Shown here in pieces: positions 1-60,985 of a DNA stretch of 64,000 nt (position 1 is its first letter; each line of letters begins with the position of its first letter). Origin of the DNA: an uncultured Bacillota bacterium. GTDB taxonomy: Bacteria; Bacillota_I; Bacilli_A; RFN20; CAG-826. The DNA lies in NCBI GenBank assembly GCA_949287245.1, contig CASEFL010000007.1, forward strand, positions 1 to 64,000, read 5' to 3'. Under the pieces are notes generated by a model that worked only from the letters and a program-made list of their open reading frames with translations, was not told the DNA's origin and did no database searches. Both the position numbers and the translations under genes were made by a program.

Positions 1-82
1 CTCGATTATTGAGTTGCTATCGTGTGTTTTTAGAGCCATATATGTATGTGCGAAGGCTAGAAAACACACCTTCGGGAAAGAG
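1..82 (+). repeat. 82-bp leader repeat, copy 1
   Basis: This stretch is identical, base for base, to 59427..59508. Both copies lie just upstream of an amidoligase gene copy. The repeat starts at or before the window edge, so its left limit is unknown. It carries a hairpin (see 22..69) and the end of it merges into the ribosome binding site of the amidoligase start at 95. Confidence 0.9.
22..69 (+). promoter_or_regulatory. long hairpin in amidoligase leader
   Basis: GTGTGTTTT at 22..30 pairs with AAAACACAC at 61..69. The stem continues inward as AGCC against GGCT with a small internal bulge, leaving an A/T-rich loop. The same hairpin occurs at 59448..59495. It sits 25 bases upstream of the native amidoligase ATG, so an RNA leader element is plausible. 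I recognise no known riboswitch class. Confidence 0.5.
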
Positions 83-94
83 GTAAATTTAGAT

Positions 95-472
95 ATGTTC
101 AAAGAGAAATTCGGAATCGAAATCGAGTTCACGGGAATCACTAGAAACAAGGCCAGCAAGGTCGTTGCTGAAGTCATCAATGGATCGATTACTGAAACAA
201 GAGACTATTATGACACAAAGGAGATAAAAACCTTGGACGGACGTAAGTGGAAGGTAATGTATGATGGTTCCCTTAGATGCCAAACCAAGAGGAATAGCGA
301 AATCATAAGCGCAGGCAGAGATTATTCCTGAGAACTTGTAAGCCCTATCCTTATATATGACGAGGACATCGAGACCTTACAGGAAATCGTTAGGGCATTA
401 AGGAAGAGTGGAGCATTTACTAACGCAAGCTGCGGTATCCACATCCACCTTGATGGCGCGAATCACGATAGA
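95..472 (+). pseudogene. amidoligase-family gene, 3'-truncated copy
   Basis: The open part runs 95..331 (78 residues) from an ATG preceded by GAGGTAAA. It begins with the GIEIEFTG-type motif that opens the amidoligase_2 family and matches the copy at 59435..60370 almost codon for codon. At 329..331 a TGA stands where the other copy has TGT (Cys). Similarity continues past this stop to about 472, then breaks off abruptly into an antisense helicase fragment. The gene therefore keeps the N-terminus that the 59-kb copy lacks, but has lost about two thirds of its C-terminal part. The product is very unlikely to be active. Known family context: amidoligases of this type are predicted to join amino groups to carboxylates and often sit beside gamma-glutamylcyclotransferases, as the second copy does. 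Confidence 0.8.
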
Positions 473-30078: not shown

Positions 30079-31302
30079 TTAAAACAGTATCAAATCCTTT
30101 TTATGAAGAAGCCAATCCTCAATGTTTAAATGAATGATACCGTCAGCGGACATATCAAATTTATCAAGACTTAATACGTATTTGGGCGCATTATCTTTTA
30201 CCGATTTATAGGAGCCGAATTCTCTTTCAATTACTTCTTCGCTAGACAACAAATAAGCCACTTGCACAAAGCACTTCTTACCATCCTTCATTACAACAAA
30301 GTCTATTTCCCCTTTATATGTTTTACCGATTTTTACATCATAACCTCTCAAAACCATTTCGTTATAAATTACATTTTCTAAAAGATGTGAAGCGAGAAGA
30401 TGATTTGTTTGTGAACATGCTAAAATGAAACCATTATCACAAACGAATTGTTTTTCATTTTTCTTTAAAATCCTTTTTGAAGAAACATTATATTGTTTTA
30501 CTCTACTAAGGATGCATGCTTCTTCAAGCTTTTTTAAATACCTGCTTATAGTAATTCGATATATTTCGCTATCGTTATTTTTATTAAAAAAATTTACAAT
30601 CCTTTCAGAAGAAAATTCCTTAGTTACATTTGAAATAATATATGTTGCAATTGTTATGAAATTATCGCGATCAATTCTCGATTTTTGATTACAAATATCT
30701 TTGTCTATGATTCCATAAAAAATTGATTTTAAATATCTTTTTATATCCTCTTCATTACTATAATCAAATCTTTGAGGCATCCCTCCATATCGCAAATAAT
30801 TAACTAATGGTTCTTCGGGTAAAGACAAATTATTTGCCTGATAAAATTTTATAAATTCAGCATAAGAAAAAGGCATTATTTTAAATTCGACACATCTTCC
30901 AACTAAAAGCGTGGCAAGTTTGCCTGAAAGCAAATTGGAATTGCTTCCTGTTATGAACAAGGAAACATTTCTTGTAGCTTTTAAAGAAGCCAAAATTCTT
31001 TCAAATTGATTAACATGTTGAATTTCATCAATGAATATAAAATACTTTTTGTCATCTTTAATGAGCTTATTTATGTATGTATTTAATCTATTAGCGTTCT
31101 TTAAAGATGCAAATTTAAAATCCTCTAAATTTATATAAATAATGTGATACTGGTTTGCTTTATCAAGATAGAGTATCTCGTCTCTAATCTGCGAAAGTAA
31201 AACACTTTTACCACTTCTCCTCACTCCGGTAAGTACTTTAATTAAGTTTGAGTCGTAATATCTTCTAATTGTTTCTAAATAATATTCTCTTTTAATATAC
31301 AT
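30079..31302 (-). CDS. AAA-family ATPase with DUF4143-type C-terminus
   Basis: A 407-residue protein of the AAA_14/DUF4143 group. Walker A is GVRRSGKSVLL (about residue 27), Walker B YFIFIDEIQ (about 92) and sensor FITGSNS (about 118). A winged-helix-like middle (ISRYLKKLEEACILSRVKQYN) and a nuclease-like C-terminal domain (GEIDFVVMKDGKKCFVQVAY, a D-x(n)-Q motif of the PD-(D/E)xK fold) follow. Members are numerous in gut bacteria, often mobile and of unknown function. The gene stands alone between near-identical 41-bp direct repeats, suggesting it moved in as a cassette. Codon use is AT-rich like the host. Confidence 0.85.
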   Translation of the reverse strand: MYIKREYYLETIRRYYDSNLIKVLTGVRRSGKSVLLSQIRDEILYLDKANQYHIIYINLEDFKFASLKNANRLNTYINKLIKDDKKYFIFIDEIQHVNQFERILASLKATRNVSLFITGSNSNLLSGKLATLLVGRCVEFKIMPFSYAEFIKFYQANNLSLPEEPLVNYLRYGGMPQRFDYSNEEDIKRYLKSIFYGIIDKDICNQKSRIDRDNFITIATYIISNVTKEFSSERIVNFFNKNNDSEIYRITISRYLKKLEEACILSRVKQYNVSSKRILKKNEKQFVCDNGFILACSQTNHLLASHLLENVIYNEMVLRGYDVKIGKTYKGEIDFVVMKDGKKCFVQVAYLLSSEEVIEREFGSYKSVKDNAPKYVLSLDKFDMSADGIIHLNIEDWLLHKKDLILF

Positions 31303-31376: not shown

Positions 31377-31610
31377 CTAATTTCAATGATTAATGAGTTG
31401 CTTATTATATAAGAATATGATTAATAAATTGCTTGAGCAAAGAAGCAAATGATAAAAAGAAAAGGTATTAATGCTTCCAGACATCTTACTTTTTAAATAA
31501 GCGATGCCTTTCGTAAAGATTTGTCAGAAACATATGCATTTAATAGCTTTTAAATCTTCTCTATTTTTCTTTCGTTATAGCGAGGCATAAGCACCTACTA
31601 AATATAGAGA
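31377..31610. other. gene-free stretch
   Basis: AT-rich DNA between the ATPase cassette and the tRNA-linked repeat. No supported gene, hairpin or promoter was found. Confidence 0.4.
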
Positions 31611-31890
31611 AAGATTTGAGTAGCGTTTTGACTAGTGCCTGGACAAAGAAAAAAGCAAAAAAGTCCTTACCAATCCTTATTGAATCCAATAGAGACTAAG
31701 GGTGTTCACGTCCCCTTGTAATTGTTGAGCGCCTTGTATTTGTGAATCCTCTTCTTGTAGTGGTTGCTCCAAAAAATCCGTGAGTTCGACCACTATTACA
31801 AGGGGCTGTTTTCAAAAGCCCTTAATTGTCGGTATAAAAAGAAAAAGCCCGAACACCCCTAAAGGTATCAGGCATAATCTACGATAATGG
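31611..31890 (-). repeat. tRNA-linked inverted repeat, copy A
   Basis: Read leftward from the CCA end of tRNA-Phe, this about 280-bp sequence matches copy B (53854..54132) read rightward from the CCA end of tRNA-Thr. The match is near-exact in the first 35 bases and in a central block of about 110 bases, and diverged between. It holds the tRNA terminator and a cluster of TTACAAG-like motifs on both strands. The two copies face each other across about 22 kb. Confidence 0.85.
31836..31873 (-). terminator. tRNA operon terminator
   Basis: On the minus strand GCCTGA...TCGGGC (one G-T pair) followed by TTTTTCTTTTT. The homologous hairpin at 53871 has TCAGGC, a base change that keeps the pair. Confidence 0.8.
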
Positions 31891-31963
31891 TGGCCCAAGG
31901 CGGAATCGAACCGCCGACACAGGGATTTTCAGTCCCTTGCTCTACCGACTGAGCTATCGGGCC
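31891..31963 (-). tRNA. tRNA-Phe (GAA)
   Basis: Cloverleaf of 73 bases, anticodon loop CTGAAAA, discriminator A, CCA encoded at 31888..31890. It is second in a two-tRNA transcript. Confidence 0.96.
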
Positions 31964-53782: not shown

Positions 53783-53856
53783 GCCCCGCTAGTTAAATGG
53801 CATAACGGATCCATGGTAAGGATCAATCCGTAGTTCGATTCTGCGGCGGGGCACCA
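53783..53856 (+). tRNA. tRNA-Thr (GGT)
   Basis: Cloverleaf of 71 bases plus encoded CCA (53854..53856), anticodon loop ATGGTAA. The D arm is short and AT-rich and the T stem has one G-U pair. The accessory island starts at its 3' end. Confidence 0.92.
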
Positions 53857-54132
53857 TTATCGTAGATTATGCCTGATACCTTTAGGGGTGCTCAGGCTTT
53901 TTCTTTTTGTGCCGACAATTAAGGGCTTTTCAAAATTGCACCTTGTAATAGTGGTCGAACTCACGGATTTTTTGGAGCAACCATTACAAGAAGAGGGTTC
54001 ACAAATACAAGGCGCTCAACAATTACAAGGGGACGTGAACACCCCAGGTTTTTACTGATTTCGACAAGGATTAGTGGTGACTTTTTTTGATTTTTTCTCC
54101 GACAAACACTAGTCAAAACGCCTTCCGAATCT
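53854..54132 (+). repeat. tRNA-linked inverted repeat, copy B
   Basis: The mirror of copy A (31611..31890), starting at the tRNA CCA end. Four TTACAAG-type motifs are visible: CTTGTAAT at 53942..53949, ATTACAAG at 53983..53990, AATACAAG at 54004..54011 and ATTACAAG at 54022..54029. Such short repeats beside a tRNA end look like integrase arm-type sites of an integrated element. Confidence 0.85.
53871..53909 (+). terminator. tRNA-Thr terminator
   Basis: GCCTGA...TCAGGC stem followed by TTTTTCTTTTT; homologous to the hairpin at 31836..31873. Confidence 0.85.
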
Positions 54133-54188
54133 CCATATATTGAGCAGGCTGTTCTTCGCTTGCTCTAAATGAAAGGAGATTGAAGAAG

Positions 54189-54752
54189 ATGAAGAAAAAG
54201 AAGAAGTTTTATCTGTTGCTTCAAAACGGGGAGACCTTGATGAAGGAAGCATCGGAAAGCGTAAGGGTCAACAGGCTGACCGGAAAAGAAAACGTTCTGG
54301 CGATAATGCCTGTTGCGGAAGATGAGGATATCGACGACTCTGTCGACAAGATGATGTCGAGTTCCGGCGAGTTCTTGGATGGTGTATATACCTTCAAGAT
54401 CATTGATTTGGTGAGGAGACACTCCAAAGGCTTCGACAACTTGCCGCCATGCACGAAGATAGATGTCACGTTCCGACTTTACAGCGACAATTGTTATCTA
54501 GACATTTATGATGATTTTTATCTGAACAAAATGGATAAAGATAGAATCGACGATATATTCTGGAGCGTCGGATTAAAAAGAGACAAAGACAACGGTTTGG
54601 ACAATTTCAATGTTTGTGATTTGATCGGAAAAAAAGGTGTCTGCTATATAAAGTGCTACGAAAGCAAAACACGTTCCGGAGACATTCAGCGTGAAAGAAG
54701 GATCACTAAGTTTTTCGACTATAACCCCTATGTGATCCAGGAGGTTAAATAG
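54189..54752 (+). CDS. phage-type ssDNA-binding-like protein (tentative)
   Basis: A 187-residue acidic cytoplasmic protein. The C-terminal two thirds (FLDGVYTFKI ... VTFRLYSDNCYLDIYDDFYLN ... DLIGKKGVCYIKCYES) have the layout of the DUF669-like proteins that precede replication genes in phages and are thought to bind single-stranded DNA. I assign this by layout only. It starts the island; AAAGGAG precedes ATG 54189, and the primase gene follows after 2 bases. Codon use (ATC, AAG, AGG, GAC) differs from the host genes. Confidence 0.5.
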   Translation: MKKKKKFYLLLQNGETLMKEASESVRVNRLTGKENVLAIMPVAEDEDIDDSVDKMMSSSGEFLDGVYTFKIIDLVRRHSKGFDNLPPCTKIDVTFRLYSDNCYLDIYDDFYLNKMDKDRIDDIFWSVGLKRDKDNGLDNFNVCDLIGKKGVCYIKCYESKTRSGDIQRERRITKFFDYNPYVIQEVK

Positions 54753-54754
54753 TC

Positions 54755-57100
54755 ATGTTTGCCATCTATTCATCCAATGTCCTTGAGAAAGAATATAACA
54801 CCTCATATAAGAGGAAATTTGAAGTTAACAATCTTGACGATTTAAAGCAAGCCGTCTCTCGTGATTATGTTTCGATTCGCTTTAAAGACTGCCAAAGAAG
54901 CAATGATAATTTTTTAGAGTCGGACTGCATCGTCATGGACATCGACAACGACCATAGCGATGATCCTTCCAGCTGGATCGGCCCTGAGAAAATAGGCGAT
55001 GTCTTCCCCGATGTCGAATATTACGTCCATTTTTCCAGGCATCATTTGATCGCCAAGGGAAGCAAGGAGGCCAGGCCCAAGTTTCATGTCCTGTTTCCGA
55101 TCAAGAAGTGCTCCAACGGAGAAGATTACAAGGCGATAAAATTGAAGATACTGAGATTCTGCAAGCTTTTCGACAAGAAGGCCATCGATAACGGCCACTT
55201 CTTCTATGGCACGAAAGAACCTCGGGTCATGTATTTCAAGGGCGGGCAGACGATAGATGATTTCCTCGAGATCTATGACCTCAACGAACTCAACCTGAAA
55301 GTGGATGACAACGGTGAAATCCTTGATGATTTTAACTTGTCCGATTCCAGGGAGATACTTCGCTTTCCGATAGAGGAAGGCAACAGGAACAACACAATGT
55401 TCAATCTAGGTCGAAAATTCATCATGAGGCATGACGACACCGGGATTGCCTATCGATTGTTTTCGGAGCAGGCGAAGTATTGCAATCCGCCGCTCGACGA
55501 CAGAGAACTCAACACGATTTGGGCTTCGCTCAAGAAAGGGTTGGCCAATTTGAAGGCTCAAGGAAAATATTTGTCGCCCAAGGAGTTCTTCAAGAACAAC
55601 GTCGTGCTCAAGACCTTGAAGCCGAAGAACTTCAGCGACTATGATCAGGCGGTCGTTTTCTCGAAGTACTTCATGGACAAGATTGCCTACAGCGATGCCA
55701 CAAGCTTTTTGATCTACAAGGGAAGTCACTGGGAAGAGGACGATGTCACTGCAAGACGCTTTGCCCAGATATTGACAGATGAGCAACTTAAAGAAGCTGA
55801 TAAACTGTTCTTCGATGCCGAGAACAAAATAGAAGACTTGGACGGCGGGTTCGAGGTGTTGAAAAAAAGACTTCACGATGGCACGGCGACCGACGAGGAG
55901 AAAGGGTTGGCCTCTCAGTACCAAGACGCCAAGGACTATAAGAGCTACATCTTGAAGAGAAGAAATTCCGGGAAGATCCAATCGTCGCTCAACGAGCTGG
56001 CCCCGATCGTCCAGTTTTCCATCAAGGAGCTGGACAAAGACGAGTTCCTGCTTTCCACCCCGGCTGCCACCTATGACTTGAGGGAAGGATTGAAGGGCGC
56101 CAGGACTCCTTCGCCAAAGGACATGCTCACCAAGATCACCGGCGTGTCCCCATCGAACCGAGGAAAGGATCTATGGCTCAAGTTCTTGAGTGATGTCTTT
56201 GATGACGACCAAGAGCTGATCGATTACGTGCAAATGATATGCGGGGTATGCGCCATCGGGAAGGTCTATATCGAGGGCATCATCATTTCATATGGTGACG
56301 GAGGAAACGGCAAATCGACATTCTGGAATACCGTTGCCAAGGTCTTGGGAAGCTACTACGGCAAGATCAGCGCCGACGCCTTGACGACGAACTGCAAAAG
56401 GAATGTGAAGCCGGAACTTGCCGAACTCAGGGGAAAGAGGCTGATCATCGCAAGCGAATCCCAGGAAGGGGCGAGGCTTGACGACAGCGAGATCAAGGAG
56501 CTCTGCTCCACCGACGATATCAGGGGCGAGAAGAAATACAAGGCTCCTTTCGATTTCACCCCGACCCATACTTTGGTTCTCTACACAAACCACCTCCCCA
56601 AGGTCAAAGGCGTGGACGACGGCATCTGGAGAAGGATCATCGTCATCCCTTTCAACCACAAATTCACAAAGGACAACGCCGACATCAAGAACTATAGCGA
56701 CATCCTCTTCGAAGAAAGCGGGGAATATGTTCTTTCCTGGATCATCGAAGGCGCGAAGAAAGTCTACGATTCTAAGTTCAAGATCAAAAACCCTAAAGTG
56801 GTGCAGGAAGCCATCGACAGCTACAAAAAGGACAACGATTGGTTTGGCAAGTTCATAGACAATTGCTGCGAGGTCAATCCAGGTGAGGAGTGCAAGTCCT
56901 CGGATCTTTATCAAGCTTACAGGACATACGCCACTTCGCAAGGTGAATATCCAAGGGGCACGATCGAGTTCTACACCGAACTGGAAAGAAGGGGCTTCAG
57001 GAAGGTGCCGAGAAGGGAGCGCGGGGTCAGGCTGGTCTTTGTCAAAGGACTGAGCATCATAAACGCCGATGTCATCGATGATTTTTCCTTCCTGCAATGA
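54755..57100 (+). CDS. phage/plasmid primase with SF3 helicase domain
   Basis: A 781-residue replication protein. The N-terminal archaeo-eukaryotic-type primase has the metal-binding DxD in MDIDND (Asp 62 and 64) and RPKFHVLFPI. A PriCT-like helical segment follows (about 210-270). The C-terminal D5/P4-type superfamily 3 helicase has Walker A GDGGNGKST (about 512), Walker B GKRLIIASES, and motif C/arginine finger TNHLPKVKGVDDGIWRRI. Such proteins start replication of P4-like elements, phages and satellites at an iteron-bearing origin. The GC-rich third positions mark it as foreign to the surrounding genome. Confidence 0.92.
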   Translation: MFAIYSSNVLEKEYNTSYKRKFEVNNLDDLKQAVSRDYVSIRFKDCQRSNDNFLESDCIVMDIDNDHSDDPSSWIGPEKIGDVFPDVEYYVHFSRHHLIAKGSKEARPKFHVLFPIKKCSNGEDYKAIKLKILRFCKLFDKKAIDNGHFFYGTKEPRVMYFKGGQTIDDFLEIYDLNELNLKVDDNGEILDDFNLSDSREILRFPIEEGNRNNTMFNLGRKFIMRHDDTGIAYRLFSEQAKYCNPPLDDRELNTIWASLKKGLANLKAQGKYLSPKEFFKNNVVLKTLKPKNFSDYDQAVVFSKYFMDKIAYSDATSFLIYKGSHWEEDDVTARRFAQILTDEQLKEADKLFFDAENKIEDLDGGFEVLKKRLHDGTATDEEKGLASQYQDAKDYKSYILKRRNSGKIQSSLNELAPIVQFSIKELDKDEFLLSTPAATYDLREGLKGARTPSPKDMLTKITGVSPSNRGKDLWLKFLSDVFDDDQELIDYVQMICGVCAIGKVYIEGIIISYGDGGNGKSTFWNTVAKVLGSYYGKISADALTTNCKRNVKPELAELRGKRLIIASESQEGARLDDSEIKELCSTDDIRGEKKYKAPFDFTPTHTLVLYTNHLPKVKGVDDGIWRRIIVIPFNHKFTKDNADIKNYSDILFEESGEYVLSWIIEGAKKVYDSKFKIKNPKVVQEAIDSYKKDNDWFGKFIDNCCEVNPGEECKSSDLYQAYRTYATSQGEYPRGTIEFYTELERRGFRKVPRRERGVRLVFVKGLSIINADVIDDFSFLQ

Positions 57101-57102
57101 TT

Positions 57103-57215
57103 ACAAGGCAGGGTCGGTAGGGTCTTTTCCATACTTTCTCACGTCTAGGGTAAGGAGAAAGAAAAATGAATAATATAGAGTTTTGGGAATTGACACTACC
57201 GACCATGACCCTTGT
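57103..57215. repeat. inverted repeat flanking a small gene start
   Basis: ACAAGG (57103..57108) and GGTCGGTAG (57112..57120) are mirrored by CTACCGACC (57196..57204) and CCTTGT (57210..57215). The arms are perfect in both blocks, with 3 and 5 bases between them. They surround the ribosome binding site and first codons of the 42-residue gene. Confidence 0.75.
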
Positions 57216-57294
57216 ATTTGTTGAAGATTATAAAAACCTCGATAAACACGGGCTATTAGAGCAAAGCGAGGTGATGAATATTGAGATTGAGTGA
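57166..57294 (+). CDS. small island protein
   Basis: A 42-residue frame with AAGGAG at 57152..57157 before its ATG. It opens MNNIEFWELTLP and ends overlapping the next gene by 14 bases, so it is likely translated and coupled to it. No family is recognised; small proteins of this kind often precede ArpU-like regulators in phages. Confidence 0.55.
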   Translation: MNNIEFWELTLPTMTLVFVEDYKNLDKHGLLEQSEVMNIEIE

Positions 57295-57646
57295 ACACCT
57301 TGGATTGATAAAGCTGAAGCAGGCCGATATCGCCAAGGAGGAGCAGATATTGAATTTCTGCAAAGGACAAGCCGATGCTTCCGGAAATTCATCCCCCTGG
57401 AAAGCCAAGTGCGAGGCCGAGGCGGCGAAAATAAGCGAAGACAGGCAAATGCTCGACGATATGAAACTGAAGGCACTGAACGCCTTGAAAGGCCAAGGGA
57501 ACGAAAGAGCAATGTCTTTCATCATCAACCATTATTTGGCCTTCAAGACCTACAAGGAGATGGAAAAGGAGATGTATCTTTCAAGGAGCACGCTTTATCG
57601 AACAAGGGACGAGGCCATAAAAATCATGGAAGAGATAGAAGTATGA
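57281..57646 (+). CDS. ArpU/sigma-like phage transcription regulator
   Basis: A 121-residue helical protein. The N-terminal half is a charged coiled coil; the C-terminal half (MSFIINHYLAFKTYKEMEKEMYLSRSTLYRTRDEAIKIM) is a sigma-70 region-4-like helix-turn-helix, as in ArpU-type late-gene activators of Gram-positive phages. The start is TTG 57281, supported by GAGGTGA at 57268..57274, 6 bases upstream. Likely role: activating the packaging (TerS) segment downstream. Confidence 0.7.
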   Translation: MRLSEHLGLIKLKQADIAKEEQILNFCKGQADASGNSSPWKAKCEAEAAKISEDRQMLDDMKLKALNALKGQGNERAMSFIINHYLAFKTYKEMEKEMYLSRSTLYRTRDEAIKIMEEIEV

Positions 57647-58340
57647 AGTGTATTTCCTTGGCCATGTCGAATGAATCCAAGCGGTTCTGACGTATCAAGA
57701 GTATTTGAAGATTATAAAAGACGTTTGAATTGCCTTGGTCACGTTAGATGGTTTCAACGTAATGACACGTGAAGAGACAATTGTCTGGTTTGCGGTCTCC
57801 TTGGATTCTAACATAGCGCCTCGAAGTCGACCAACGTTAAGACAGCAACCGTACAAGGCGGTATTCGGTTTTGGCTATAGATGCCCATAAAGGCTAAATG
57901 AGTGCAACGTACGGCAAATGTGGGGCCTACACGAAAGAATGTTGTTATATAAGTGTTCTTATCTAATGAAAATATGTAGGGGAGATTTCTGTCTTACGTT
58001 TTGTATACGTCGAAATACATTAGGACATCTAACGTGTTCCAAGGAAAAGGCGCCTTGAGGAGATTTTGTCTTCCGCTCGGTATACCTTGAAATACGTCAG
58101 GAATATTCAACGTAATCCAACGTAGGGATGCTTTTCGGATTTTTGTCTTTCTCGTCGTCTCTTGACGTCATGCGTCGAATCGATCCAAGCGTAATCGACA
58201 TGGTCAAGGATGCATCTGATAAAGTTGGAACATCATGAGACAAAATGGAACTATAGGGATAAAAATGGCGATGATAAAATTAAGGTGTAAGAAGAAAAAA
58301 TCTTATTCTGCATGATTTTCGAATAGAAAGGAGGAATCTC
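57647..58340. other. non-coding repeat region, candidate origin
   Basis: About 690 bases without a supported gene. The motif CAACGTAAT/CCAACGTA recurs (about 57753, 57819, 58108, 58117, with a CCAAGCGTAATC variant near 58184), and the DNA holds the degenerate tandem repeats at 57981. AAAGGAGG just before 58341 is the ribosome binding site of the TerS-like gene. Confidence 0.55.
57981..58214. repeat. three degenerate 78-bp tandem repeats
   Basis: Units begin at 57981, 58059 and 58137, exactly 78 bases apart. Each opens GGA(GA)TTT..TGTCTT. Units 1 and 2 share GTATAC, GAAATAC, AGGA, AACGT and TCCAA in register; unit 3 is more diverged but keeps TTGA, TC and TCCAAGCGTAATC. This looks like an iteron-type replication origin or a multi-site regulatory region. 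Confidence 0.65.
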
Positions 58341-58871
58341 ATGAGCAAGAACAAACGTTTGTATGGTTCAAGTATTTATAACGATTGGGTCAATAGCGGG
58401 AAGCTCAATGACGTCCTTTCATTCATCAAAAAATGCGCACAAAGACTGGTCACCCAAAAGGAGATGTGCAAGCAATTGGGCATGAATGCTTCGACCTTCT
58501 CTTCCTTGAAGAAGGAACACCCGGACATCCAAGCCGCCATCGACAGTGCCAAATATGACCTCAAGTGCGATTTGGCCAGCGCCATGTATAAAAGAGCGAT
58601 CGGCTACGAAGTCATAGAGGAAGATCAATTAGTCGAGGAAAGAGACGGGAAGACCAAAAAGAAAGTCCATCGCATCAAGAAACAGGTCGGACCGGACTAC
58701 AAGGCACTCGTCTATCTCTTGACCAAGCATTTTGGAAAGGAATATGGCGAAAGTTACGAAGAGTTGCTTTTGAATGAGCGAAAATTTGCTGCCAAAGAGG
58801 TGACATGGACTAACGCAGATGAAGTCTCGGAAGAAGAGGAATACGAAGAAGTGGATGACAGTTTCCTCTAG
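58341..58871 (+). CDS. terminase small subunit-like protein
   Basis: A 176-residue protein: an N-terminal helix-turn-helix (VTQKEMCKQLGMNASTFSSLKKEHPDIQAAI, about 37-68), a helix with KCDLASAMYKRAIGYEVIEEDQ, a charged beta hairpin, then VGPDYKALVYLLTKHFGKEY. The block of RAIGYE, a charged hairpin and a PD..A...L segment is typical of phage small terminase subunits, which recognise DNA for packaging. A large terminase subunit does not follow; the gene is followed by a C/G-run region and then a non-phage gene. A lone TerS is a hallmark of phage satellites. Confidence 0.65.
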   Translation: MSKNKRLYGSSIYNDWVNSGKLNDVLSFIKKCAQRLVTQKEMCKQLGMNASTFSSLKKEHPDIQAAIDSAKYDLKCDLASAMYKRAIGYEVIEEDQLVEERDGKTKKKVHRIKKQVGPDYKALVYLLTKHFGKEYGESYEELLLNERKFAAKEVTWTNADEVSEEEEYEEVDDSFL

Positions 58872-59167
58872 CCATGTAAATTGAAAAAATCAATAATTGA
58901 AGTCTTTAATCTCCCATGGGCTTGGCGGTTGTCATGGCTGCTAAGTCCTTTTTGGTAGCTGACCCCTCCCCCCCGGTCCTCCTTTTTTTCTGGGGCTGGG
59001 TACCGCACGAGGGGGACTCACGAAAAATACGGGCCAAATATTTTGGAATTCTCGGTTTTCCAAAAAAAGACATGAGTTTTGTAGGGTTTTTGCTCGAATA
59101 ACTAGTGTTAATTGACTTGATATAACCGTCTCAAAGAGTGATGTATATACACGAGGAGGCATGGATT
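58872..59167. other. gap with C/G runs, candidate cos-like site
   Basis: No supported gene. GACCCCTCCCCCCCGG at 58961..58976 and GAGGGGG at 59009..59015 form a partial inverted repeat (CCCCTC/GAGGGG) in an otherwise AT-rich setting. C-run blocks next to terS are common at cos sites of Gram-positive phages. The ribosome binding site of the next gene (GAGGAGG) is at the right end. Confidence 0.35.
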
Positions 59168-59374
59168 ATGTCATTAGAAAAACTAGAGGGAAAGCTAAGT
59201 AGTCTCAGTGAGGAAACAAGGTCCTTATATAACAAGATAGATGAAAAGTACCGAATAACCATCAATGGCAAGGGTAGCTTAGAGCTTGTTGATATAAGTA
59301 ACTTCAAGGTCCTTGCTAGAGGCGAAAAGAAGATAAGAGAAGAGATGAAAAAACTTCTTGATGGAGCTAGGTAA
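59168..59374 (+). CDS. small hypothetical protein
   Basis: A 68-residue, charged, mostly helical protein (MSLEKLEGKLSSLSEETRSLYNKIDEKYRITINGKGSLELVDISN). ATG 59168 follows GAGGAGG at good spacing; an earlier GTG at 59138 would translate through that site. Unknown family. A terminator hairpin overlaps its 3' end. Confidence 0.6.
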   Translation: MSLEKLEGKLSSLSEETRSLYNKIDEKYRITINGKGSLELVDISNFKVLARGEKKIREEMKKLLDGAR

Positions 59375-59390
59375 TGGCTCCTTTTTTTCT
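59363..59390 (+). terminator. rho-independent terminator
   Basis: GGAGC...GCTCC stem overlapping the stop codon of the small gene, followed by TTTTTTT. Confidence 0.8.
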
Positions 59391-59426
59391 TGGTTTAAAG
59401 CAGTACAAAAATATAGTTCAAAATAC

Positions 59427-59508
59427 CTCGATTATTGAGTTGCTATCGTGTGTTTTTAGAGCCATATATGTATGTGCGAAGGCTAGAAAACACACCTTCG
59501 GGAAAGAG
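59427..59508 (+). repeat. 82-bp leader repeat, copy 2
   Basis: Identical to 1..82, with the same hairpin (59448..59495). In this copy the repeat joins directly to codon 21 of the amidoligase, after a 74-bp deletion bounded by the dinucleotide AG. Confidence 0.9.
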
Positions 59509-60370
59509 TAAGGTTGTTGCTGAAGTCATCAATGGATCGATTACTGAAACAAGAGACTATTATGACACAAAGGAGATAAAAGCCCTGGACGGACGTAAGT
59601 GGAAGGTCATGTACGATGGTTCCCTTAGATGCCAAACCAAAAGGAACGGCGAAATCATAAGCGCAGGTAGAGATTATTCTTGTGAGCTTGTGAGCCCTAT
59701 CCTTACATATGATGAGGACATCGAGACCTTACAAGAAATAGTTAGGGCTTTAAGAAAGAGTGGTGCATTCACGAACGCAAGTTGCGGTATCCACATCCAC
59801 CTTGATGGCGCTGACCACGATGTAAGGACCATTAGGAACTTCATCAACATCATCGCTAGCAAAAACGACCTTCTTTATAAGGCTTTGGAAATCAAACCCG
59901 AAAGAATGAGGTTCTGTAAGAAGATGGATGAGCACTTGGTCACAAACATCAATAAGAAGCATCCTAAGACATTGGCCCAACTCGCTGATATTTGGTACCA
60001 AGGTTACTACGGAAGCAGAAACACGCACTACCACGATAGCAGATATCACTTCCTTAATCTCCATAGTTTCTTCACAGGAAACCATACAGTTGAACTTAGA
60101 GGATTTAACTCTGAACTTCATGCTGGAAAGGTTAGAAGTTACATTTGCTTAGCACTTGCCTTAAACCATCAAGCATTAACTCAAAAGTGCGCTAGTTCGA
60201 AGAAGCCTCAAGTCGAGAACGAGAAGTTTGCGATGCGCACCTACCTTAACCGAATCGGGATGATAGGTGAGGAATTCAAGAACTGCAGAGTCCATTTGAC
60301 TAACGCCTTAAGCGGATGCTCGGCTTGGAGATTCGGAAGAAGCGAAGCAACTTTAGGAGGAGCAAGATAA
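59435..60370 (+). pseudogene. amidoligase-family gene, N-terminally deleted copy
   Basis: From about 59510 the frame encodes residues 22 onward of an amidoligase_2-type protein: [21 protein letters not shown] (His-rich block), GNHTVELRGFNSEL and a helical C-terminus. A 74-bp deletion has removed the ATG, its ribosome binding site and the GIEIEFTG motif kept in the copy at 95. The frame stays open upstream through the leader to a TTG at 59435, giving a 311-residue hybrid whose first 23 residues are translated leader. Loss of the Glu-bearing N-terminal motif probably abolishes ligase activity. It overlaps the cyclotransferase gene by one base. Confidence 0.7.
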
Positions 60371-60792
60371 TGAAAAAGTATTACTTAGCATATGGTTCAA
60401 ACTTAAACCTTAGCCAAATGAGAAGGAGATGCCCTAACGCCAAGAAGGTGGGGAGTTTCCTTCTTAGAGGCTACGAACTAGAGTTTAGATACTATTTGAC
60501 AATCAGGGAAAGTCCCAATGGCGAGGTTCCTTTGGGCATCTTTGAAATCGACGAAAACGACGAAAGGAGCCTAGATAGATACGAAGGATATCCGACGCAT
60601 TATAGGAAGGAATACCTAGAAGTCGAACTTAGCGGCAAACCGATAAAAGCCTTGGTCTATGTCATGAACGAGGAGATTAGGGGAATTATGGTTCCCGACA
60701 TGTTCTACGTGAACACGTGCCTAAAAGGCTACAGGGACTTCGGTTTCGATAGCGGTTATCTATTCAAGGCATACGAGAGATCGTTGCATTAA
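60370..60792 (+). CDS. gamma-glutamylcyclotransferase-like protein
   Basis: A 140-residue AIG2/GGCT-fold protein: YYLAYGSNLNLSQMRRRCPNA is the family's substrate loop, LGIFEIDENDERSLDRYEGYP carries the general-acid Glu region (LDRYEG), and KALVYVMNE follows. The family cleaves gamma-glutamyl-amine bonds to 5-oxoproline. Its pairing with amidoligases is an established genomic theme (make and undo an amide bond). Here its partner is damaged. It begins at the TAATG junction. Confidence 0.88.
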   Translation: MKKYYLAYGSNLNLSQMRRRCPNAKKVGSFLLRGYELEFRYYLTIRESPNGEVPLGIFEIDENDERSLDRYEGYPTHYRKEYLEVELSGKPIKALVYVMNEEIRGIMVPDMFYVNTCLKGYRDFGFDSGYLFKAYERSLH

Positions 60793-60944: not shown

Positions 60945-60985
60945 AAATGTGTATAATTTAATCTATAAAGTCTTTGAGGTGTTTT

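Follow-up and report, generated by a model that had tools for sequence, protein, structure and literature searches.

Downstream of a tRNA-Thr gene, an uncultured bacterium with a small genome carries a short block of phage-type genes that includes a primase and a terminase small subunit gene and is free of virion genes. Whether such a block represents a phage satellite or the remnant of a prophage is the question raised by this locus. The analysed window comprises 64,000 nucleotides (G000:C7:1-64000) of contig C7 (65,252 bases), which is part of a genome of 1.117 Mb in 13 contigs (97% complete); relatives of the host are annotated as uncultured Bacilli/Firmicutes. An earlier note on this DNA had titled the block a satellite, while allowing for a prophage remnant. 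The block is very probably no satellite but a cryptic prophage of a temperate tailed phage that several deletions have reduced to a remnant. Starting with the primase, its genes follow the order of those in complete prophages; its flank holds more phage genes, of which one is broken; and a stump of the large terminase gene lies elsewhere in the genome.

Gene content of the block

The features of the block and its surroundings are as follows (positions in the window):

1..469 (+): second broken amidoligase fragment at the contig start, 98.8% and 91.4% identical to 59427-59821
53783..53856 (+): tRNA-Thr (GGT), predicted with ARAGORN, located 3' of rimO and a nucleoside hydrolase gene, likewise in several relatives
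53857..54188 (+): noncoding post-tRNA repeat that begins with an intrinsic-terminator-like hairpin and is not island-specific
54189..54752 (alternative start 54180) (+): DUF669/SSB-like phage replication protein, 187 aa (phrog_2698, 3e-13)
54755..57100 (+): P4-type primase/helicase, 781 aa, intact (phrog_1883, 1.8e-273; D5_N, DUF5906, TIGR01613 P4-family)
57281..57646 (+): ArpU-like late regulator, 121 aa (phrog_36, 6.5e-6)
57647..58340 (no strand): noncoding ACGT array, candidate packaging site or origin from ACGT count and spacing
58341..58871 (+): TerS-family protein, 176 aa (phrog_309 terminase small subunit, 6.6e-20)
58998..59091 (no strand): scar, 86% identical to phage DNA 3' of the methyltransferase, MetK and 127-aa genes in intact prophages
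59138..59374 (+): P78, a 78-aa phage gene, 88% identical to the G097 prophage gene directly 5' of the amidoligase gene
59435..60370 (+): amidoligase pseudogene (Pfam, 1.3e-65) that has lost ~73 nt, including the start codon and first residues
60316..60792 (+): gamma-glutamyl cyclotransferase-like (GGCT) phage gene (phrog_2520, 1e-39)

The earlier description of a GC-richer block after tRNA-Thr, encoding an SSB-like protein, a P4-type primase, an ArpU-like protein, a repeat-rich noncoding region and a TerS-like protein, agrees with the phrog, Pfam and TIGR matches, the GC content and the ACGT count. The GC content climbs from ~0.36 to 0.47-0.51 across 55-57 kb and amounts to 0.42 in the DUF669-like gene, 0.48 in the primase gene, 0.46 in the ArpU-like gene and 0.45 in the TerS gene. 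The DUF669-like protein shares 22.7% identity with the DUF669-like protein of the G004 prophage, which itself matches phrog_2698 (2.5e-60), and its distant matches are phage proteins annotated as DUF669; its structure prediction was uninformative (pLDDT 35). The primase shares 60-61% identity with the prophage primases of G048, G072 and G097 and 47-49% with those of G014. Identities of the ArpU-like protein with its positional homologs in prophages range between 32 and 37%, and these homologs match phrog_36 at 3e-12 to 4e-22, the match of the window protein itself being weak. Scans of viral contigs with the DUF669-like protein and with TerS yielded no confirmed relatives, and Rfam gave no match.

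The product of 58341-58871 is predicted to be a TerS by family, as the earlier note had supposed. In addition to its phrog_309 affiliation, it matches annotated terminase small subunits, e.g. those of phages Tuc2009 and phiFL2, and shares 56-59% identity with the same gene in related prophages. In G097 and G004, the TerS-family gene is located several genes 5' of TerL and another small protein (phrog_1066, a family with no assigned function) directly precedes TerL, so that the TerS-family protein is a putative small subunit and one of two candidates. In its structural model, of low confidence (pLDDT 63), a helical region at the N-terminus is accompanied by a long helix and a beta hairpin. Among PDB structures, Sf6 TerS was the most probable match of this model (probability 0.77, E-value not significant), and a sequence search of the PDB gave no match.

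The end of the island had been set at 59,374, which is too early, as phage genes (P78, amidoligase, GGCT) run on past this position to ~60,790. The GGCT gene is followed by an XRE-type HTH gene (60,974) and by a type I restriction locus made up of hsdR, hsdM and a probable hsdS start that is broken by the contig end. The HTH and restriction genes have a host-like GC content of 0.34-0.36, and the boundary between phage and host DNA presumably lies between 60,792 and 60,974. At the G004 locus, a restriction region contains a 43% match to the HTH protein, and in G014 other genes near tRNA-Thr are likewise preceded by a similar HTH gene.

Colinearity with complete prophages

The prophages of G097, G072, G014 and G004 form one phage family, in which TerL, portal, head and tail genes are seen wherever the contig reaches. 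In G097 (contig CASDSU010000005.1), genes are arranged in one direction in the order DUF2800, DUF2815, PolA, primase, VRR-NUC, SNF2, ArpU, noncoding interval, TerS, methyltransferase, MetK, HNH, a 127-aa and a 396-aa protein, P78, amidoligase, GGCT, three short genes, TerL, portal, head, tail and serine recombinases. The window retains this order for primase, ArpU, noncoding interval, TerS, P78, amidoligase and GGCT. In contrast to the complete G097 prophage with its PolA, SNF2, methyltransferase, TerL, portal, capsid, tail and recombinase genes, it has none of these, nor DUF2800, DUF2815, VRR-NUC, MetK, HNH or anything else from TerL on; the missing methyltransferase is of the ParB-like type. 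A DUF669-like gene is located where G097 encodes DUF2815 and PolA. The gene order is common to G097 and its relatives in G072 and G048, and identities with the G097 proteins are 61% for the primase, 57% for TerS, 88% for P78, 97% for the amidoligase and 88% for GGCT. A P78 homolog also occurs alone in G062 (77% identity).

A second complete relative, the G004:C1 prophage from the same genus, likewise begins ~700 bp after tRNA-Thr and runs in the same direction as the block in the window. Both share DUF669, ArpU, TerS (56%), the ACGT array (26 sites), amidoligase (84%) and GGCT (75%), and in G004 as in G097 three short genes separate GGCT from TerL. The G004 prophage differs in its primase (phrog_2597), a DEAD helicase, the presence of a structural region and serine recombinases at the far end before rimP-nusA. 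The G014 prophage is also located between tRNA-Thr and nusA, and the tRNA-Thr flank with rimO is common to the relatives. Hence, the features expected of a remnant are present: a locus used by such phages, colinearity with an undamaged prophage from its own family, and essential modules lost along with broken genes.

Compared with the intact prophage copies, the amidoligase gene carries its deletion at 59507/59508. DNA alignment to G097 covers 58998-59091 at 86% and 59073-59508 at 89%, two segments flanking the position of the 396-aa gene; as G004 is without this gene, G097 may instead have gained it by insertion. Between TerS and the scar at 58998, the methyltransferase gene, MetK and the genes downstream of them are absent. 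Since the relatives have them, the methyltransferase gene, MetK and the TerL region are best regarded as deleted. That VRR-NUC, SNF2 and PolA are missing may reflect mosaicism or an ancestral state, as the replication module of G004 is a different one that includes DUF669. A DUF669 gene adjoining the primase gene was found in none of 146 primase loci, and as this adjacency is unseen in relatives, the left part of the island is mosaic. The surviving part is the middle of a phage genome, composed of replication operon, ArpU-like regulator, ACGT array, terS and a small cargo cassette. The parent phage was probably of the HK97-like kind, whose members in relatives carry TerL, portal, head, tail and serine recombinase genes.

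In agreement with the earlier note, the block contains no structural genes and no integrase gene. Throughout the host genome, no portal protein was matched and the sole TerL signal is a C-terminal stump of 68 aa (C3:2492-2698) with 85-88% identity to the TerLs of G004 and G097. A serine recombinase or phage-type integrase was likewise not found in the genome; its only two Phage_integrase matches are XerC/XerD-like recombinases of 296 and 302 aa encoded beside housekeeping genes. The host genome thus shows neither machinery to move the island nor an intact helper prophage of the TerL/portal type. The TerL stump lies 640 bp after an IS-interrupted copy of the post-tRNA repeat and near an HlyC-type gene pair. 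This pair hints at C3 adjoining C7, but nusA is located on C1, which leaves the adjacency tentative.

In the parent phage, DNA would have been replicated by the products of the early operon (DUF669-like protein and primase), the late genes would have been switched on by the ArpU-like protein, and packaging would have been started by TerS at a recognised site, probably the ACGT array. At the present day, the remnant would be incapable of excising or making virions on its own. At most, an infecting related phage could use its replication genes and packaging site.

The tRNA-Thr junction and rival readings

The first 250-330 bp after tRNA-Thr, with which the island begins in the earlier note, form a separate repeat that is also located 3' of other tRNAs without phage genes and hence is not a marker of the island alone. 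The core of the repeat is CATTATCGTAGATTATGCCTGATACC, and the core copy sought as a second att copy was CATTATCGTAGATTATGCCTGA. Copies with 83-93% identity are located after tRNA-Phe (31554-31911, minus strand) and on C3; in other genomes, across genera of the order, the repeat follows tRNA-Thr, Leu, Glu, Lys, Arg, Ala, Phe or tmRNA. Among the matches listed, there are 20 copies in 14 of 279 genomes, most of them beginning at the tRNA 3' end. The RNA fold of the repeat includes a terminator-like hairpin, with an overall z of only -1.19, and its core had no exact match in viral contigs. At five loci, including 30079-31302 (minus strand) of the window, a gene for an AAA/DUF4143-type ATPase follows the repeat, an identity confirmed by Pfam for the window copy and assigned to the others from similar N-terminal sequences. 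The loci with repeat and ATPase hint at a recurring tRNA-linked unit.

Relatives without the island carry other DNA after tRNA-Thr. In a genome of another genus (G150:C15; locus L253, 8930-9463), tRNA-Thr is followed by the repeat, by 84 nt at 98% identity and by 69 nt from the 5' end of the DUF669 gene (97% identity), after which unrelated sequence begins, with a second copy of the 22-nt core 444 bp downstream. On the basis of these identities, the G150 locus appears to be a nearly deleted relative of the left end of the island. The RimO proteins of G000 and G150 are only 42% identical; set against 97-98% identity of the left-end DNA, this indicates that the left-end stretch moved recently between lineages. 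A mobile element at the tRNA-Thr site is supported most strongly by the G150 left end, and such a movement is explained by any mobile element, a satellite included.

It is mainly for this movement that some weight is left to a PICI-type satellite, intact or defective, that a helper would package; its cargo would be the type I restriction genes, and its integrase and right att site would lie beyond the contig. We regard such a satellite as unlikely. Gram-positive PICIs share with the island a primase, terS and the absence of virion genes, its primase and TerS are intact, the same left end with a second core copy occurs in G150, and no right att site is reached before the contig stops at 65,252. 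PICIs are recognised in surveys by an integrase with att sites, exclusive genes and a regulator (PMC6092414). Compared with this definition, the island has no integrase, regulator, att pair, interference or capsid gene and consists of ordinary prophage genes: up to C7:65,252, neither a second core copy nor a tRNA repeat was found as right att; all genes except the DUF669-like one have close homologs in the same order in complete prophages, and the DUF669-like family also occurs in phages; no Stl/AlpA-type regulator was detected among the ORFs of 53,854-60,792, the HTH at 60,974 adjoining type I restriction genes; and no excision or capsid-remodelling gene was found. PICMIs of the Vibrionaceae, defined by the core genes int and alpA and a fis attachment site, are likewise small and carry a DUF5906-type primase, but the island is without int, alpA and the fis attachment site (PMC10803314). 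Colinearity reaches into the late-region cargo of full prophages, and the broken amidoligase and the TerL stump also count against a satellite. The comparison of TerS and primase proposed earlier led to relatives in complete prophages; a compact set with DUF669 and primase was present in 0 of 146 related primase loci and in no second genome. Without integrase, att pair and exclusive genes, the satellite reading was rejected, and the title of the earlier note with it, as no satellite-specific feature was found; the likeness of the island to a satellite is limited to its gene set.

Also quite unlikely is a satellite-like element, mobile until recently, with tRNA 3' ends in several genera of the order as its targets; G000 would hold the largest copy of this element, with restriction cargo, and G150 a copy almost fully deleted between two core repeats. 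The intactness of the four core genes (DUF669-like, primase, ArpU-like and TerS) counts against a remnant. Together with the broken cargo gene and the adjoining type I restriction-modification locus, it would fit a domesticated block in which the host keeps primase, TerS and ACGT array to interfere with related phages through a decoy site and TerS competition. However, the island genes have no match to known defence families, the primase occurs in only 2 of 37 genomes of the genus (G000 and the complete G014 prophage) with no sign of long-term retention, and recent arrival explains the intact frames equally well, which makes domestication very improbable. For the preferred reading, a prophage remnant, it follows that remnants can mimic the gene set of satellites and are a likely trap for satellite surveys; here, the neighbouring cargo genes and the intact relatives settled the question.

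The ACGT array upstream of terS

The island is ordinary except for the array of short sequence repeats before its DNA-packaging gene. The interval 57647-58340 contains 14 ACGT sites versus 3.1 expected (0 of 1000 shuffles reached 14) and is the densest such stretch in the 64 kb. The corresponding ArpU-TerS intervals hold 12 sites in G072, 26 in G004 and 5 in G097; the array was not seen in the two G014 prophages. In the four related elements pooled, 15 pairs of ACGT are spaced 9-10 bp apart, whereas 2000 random placements gave 2.5 such pairs on average and 8 at most, and the array sequences themselves have diverged between the elements. The array is hence a conserved feature of part of the phage family. 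Its position directly 5' of the TerS-family gene suggests a candidate packaging site. It lies 3' of the intact primase gene and after ArpU, and a role as putative replication origin is possible; the same array is present in full prophages. A literature search on a repeat array between ArpU and terS returned no matching paper. Conserved as it is upstream of terS, the array offers a concrete, testable candidate packaging or origin site for this phage family. In the intact G004 prophage (locus L234, 12149-13026), its 26 ACGT sites are organized in repeated modules with spacings of 12, 9, 16 and 10 bp.
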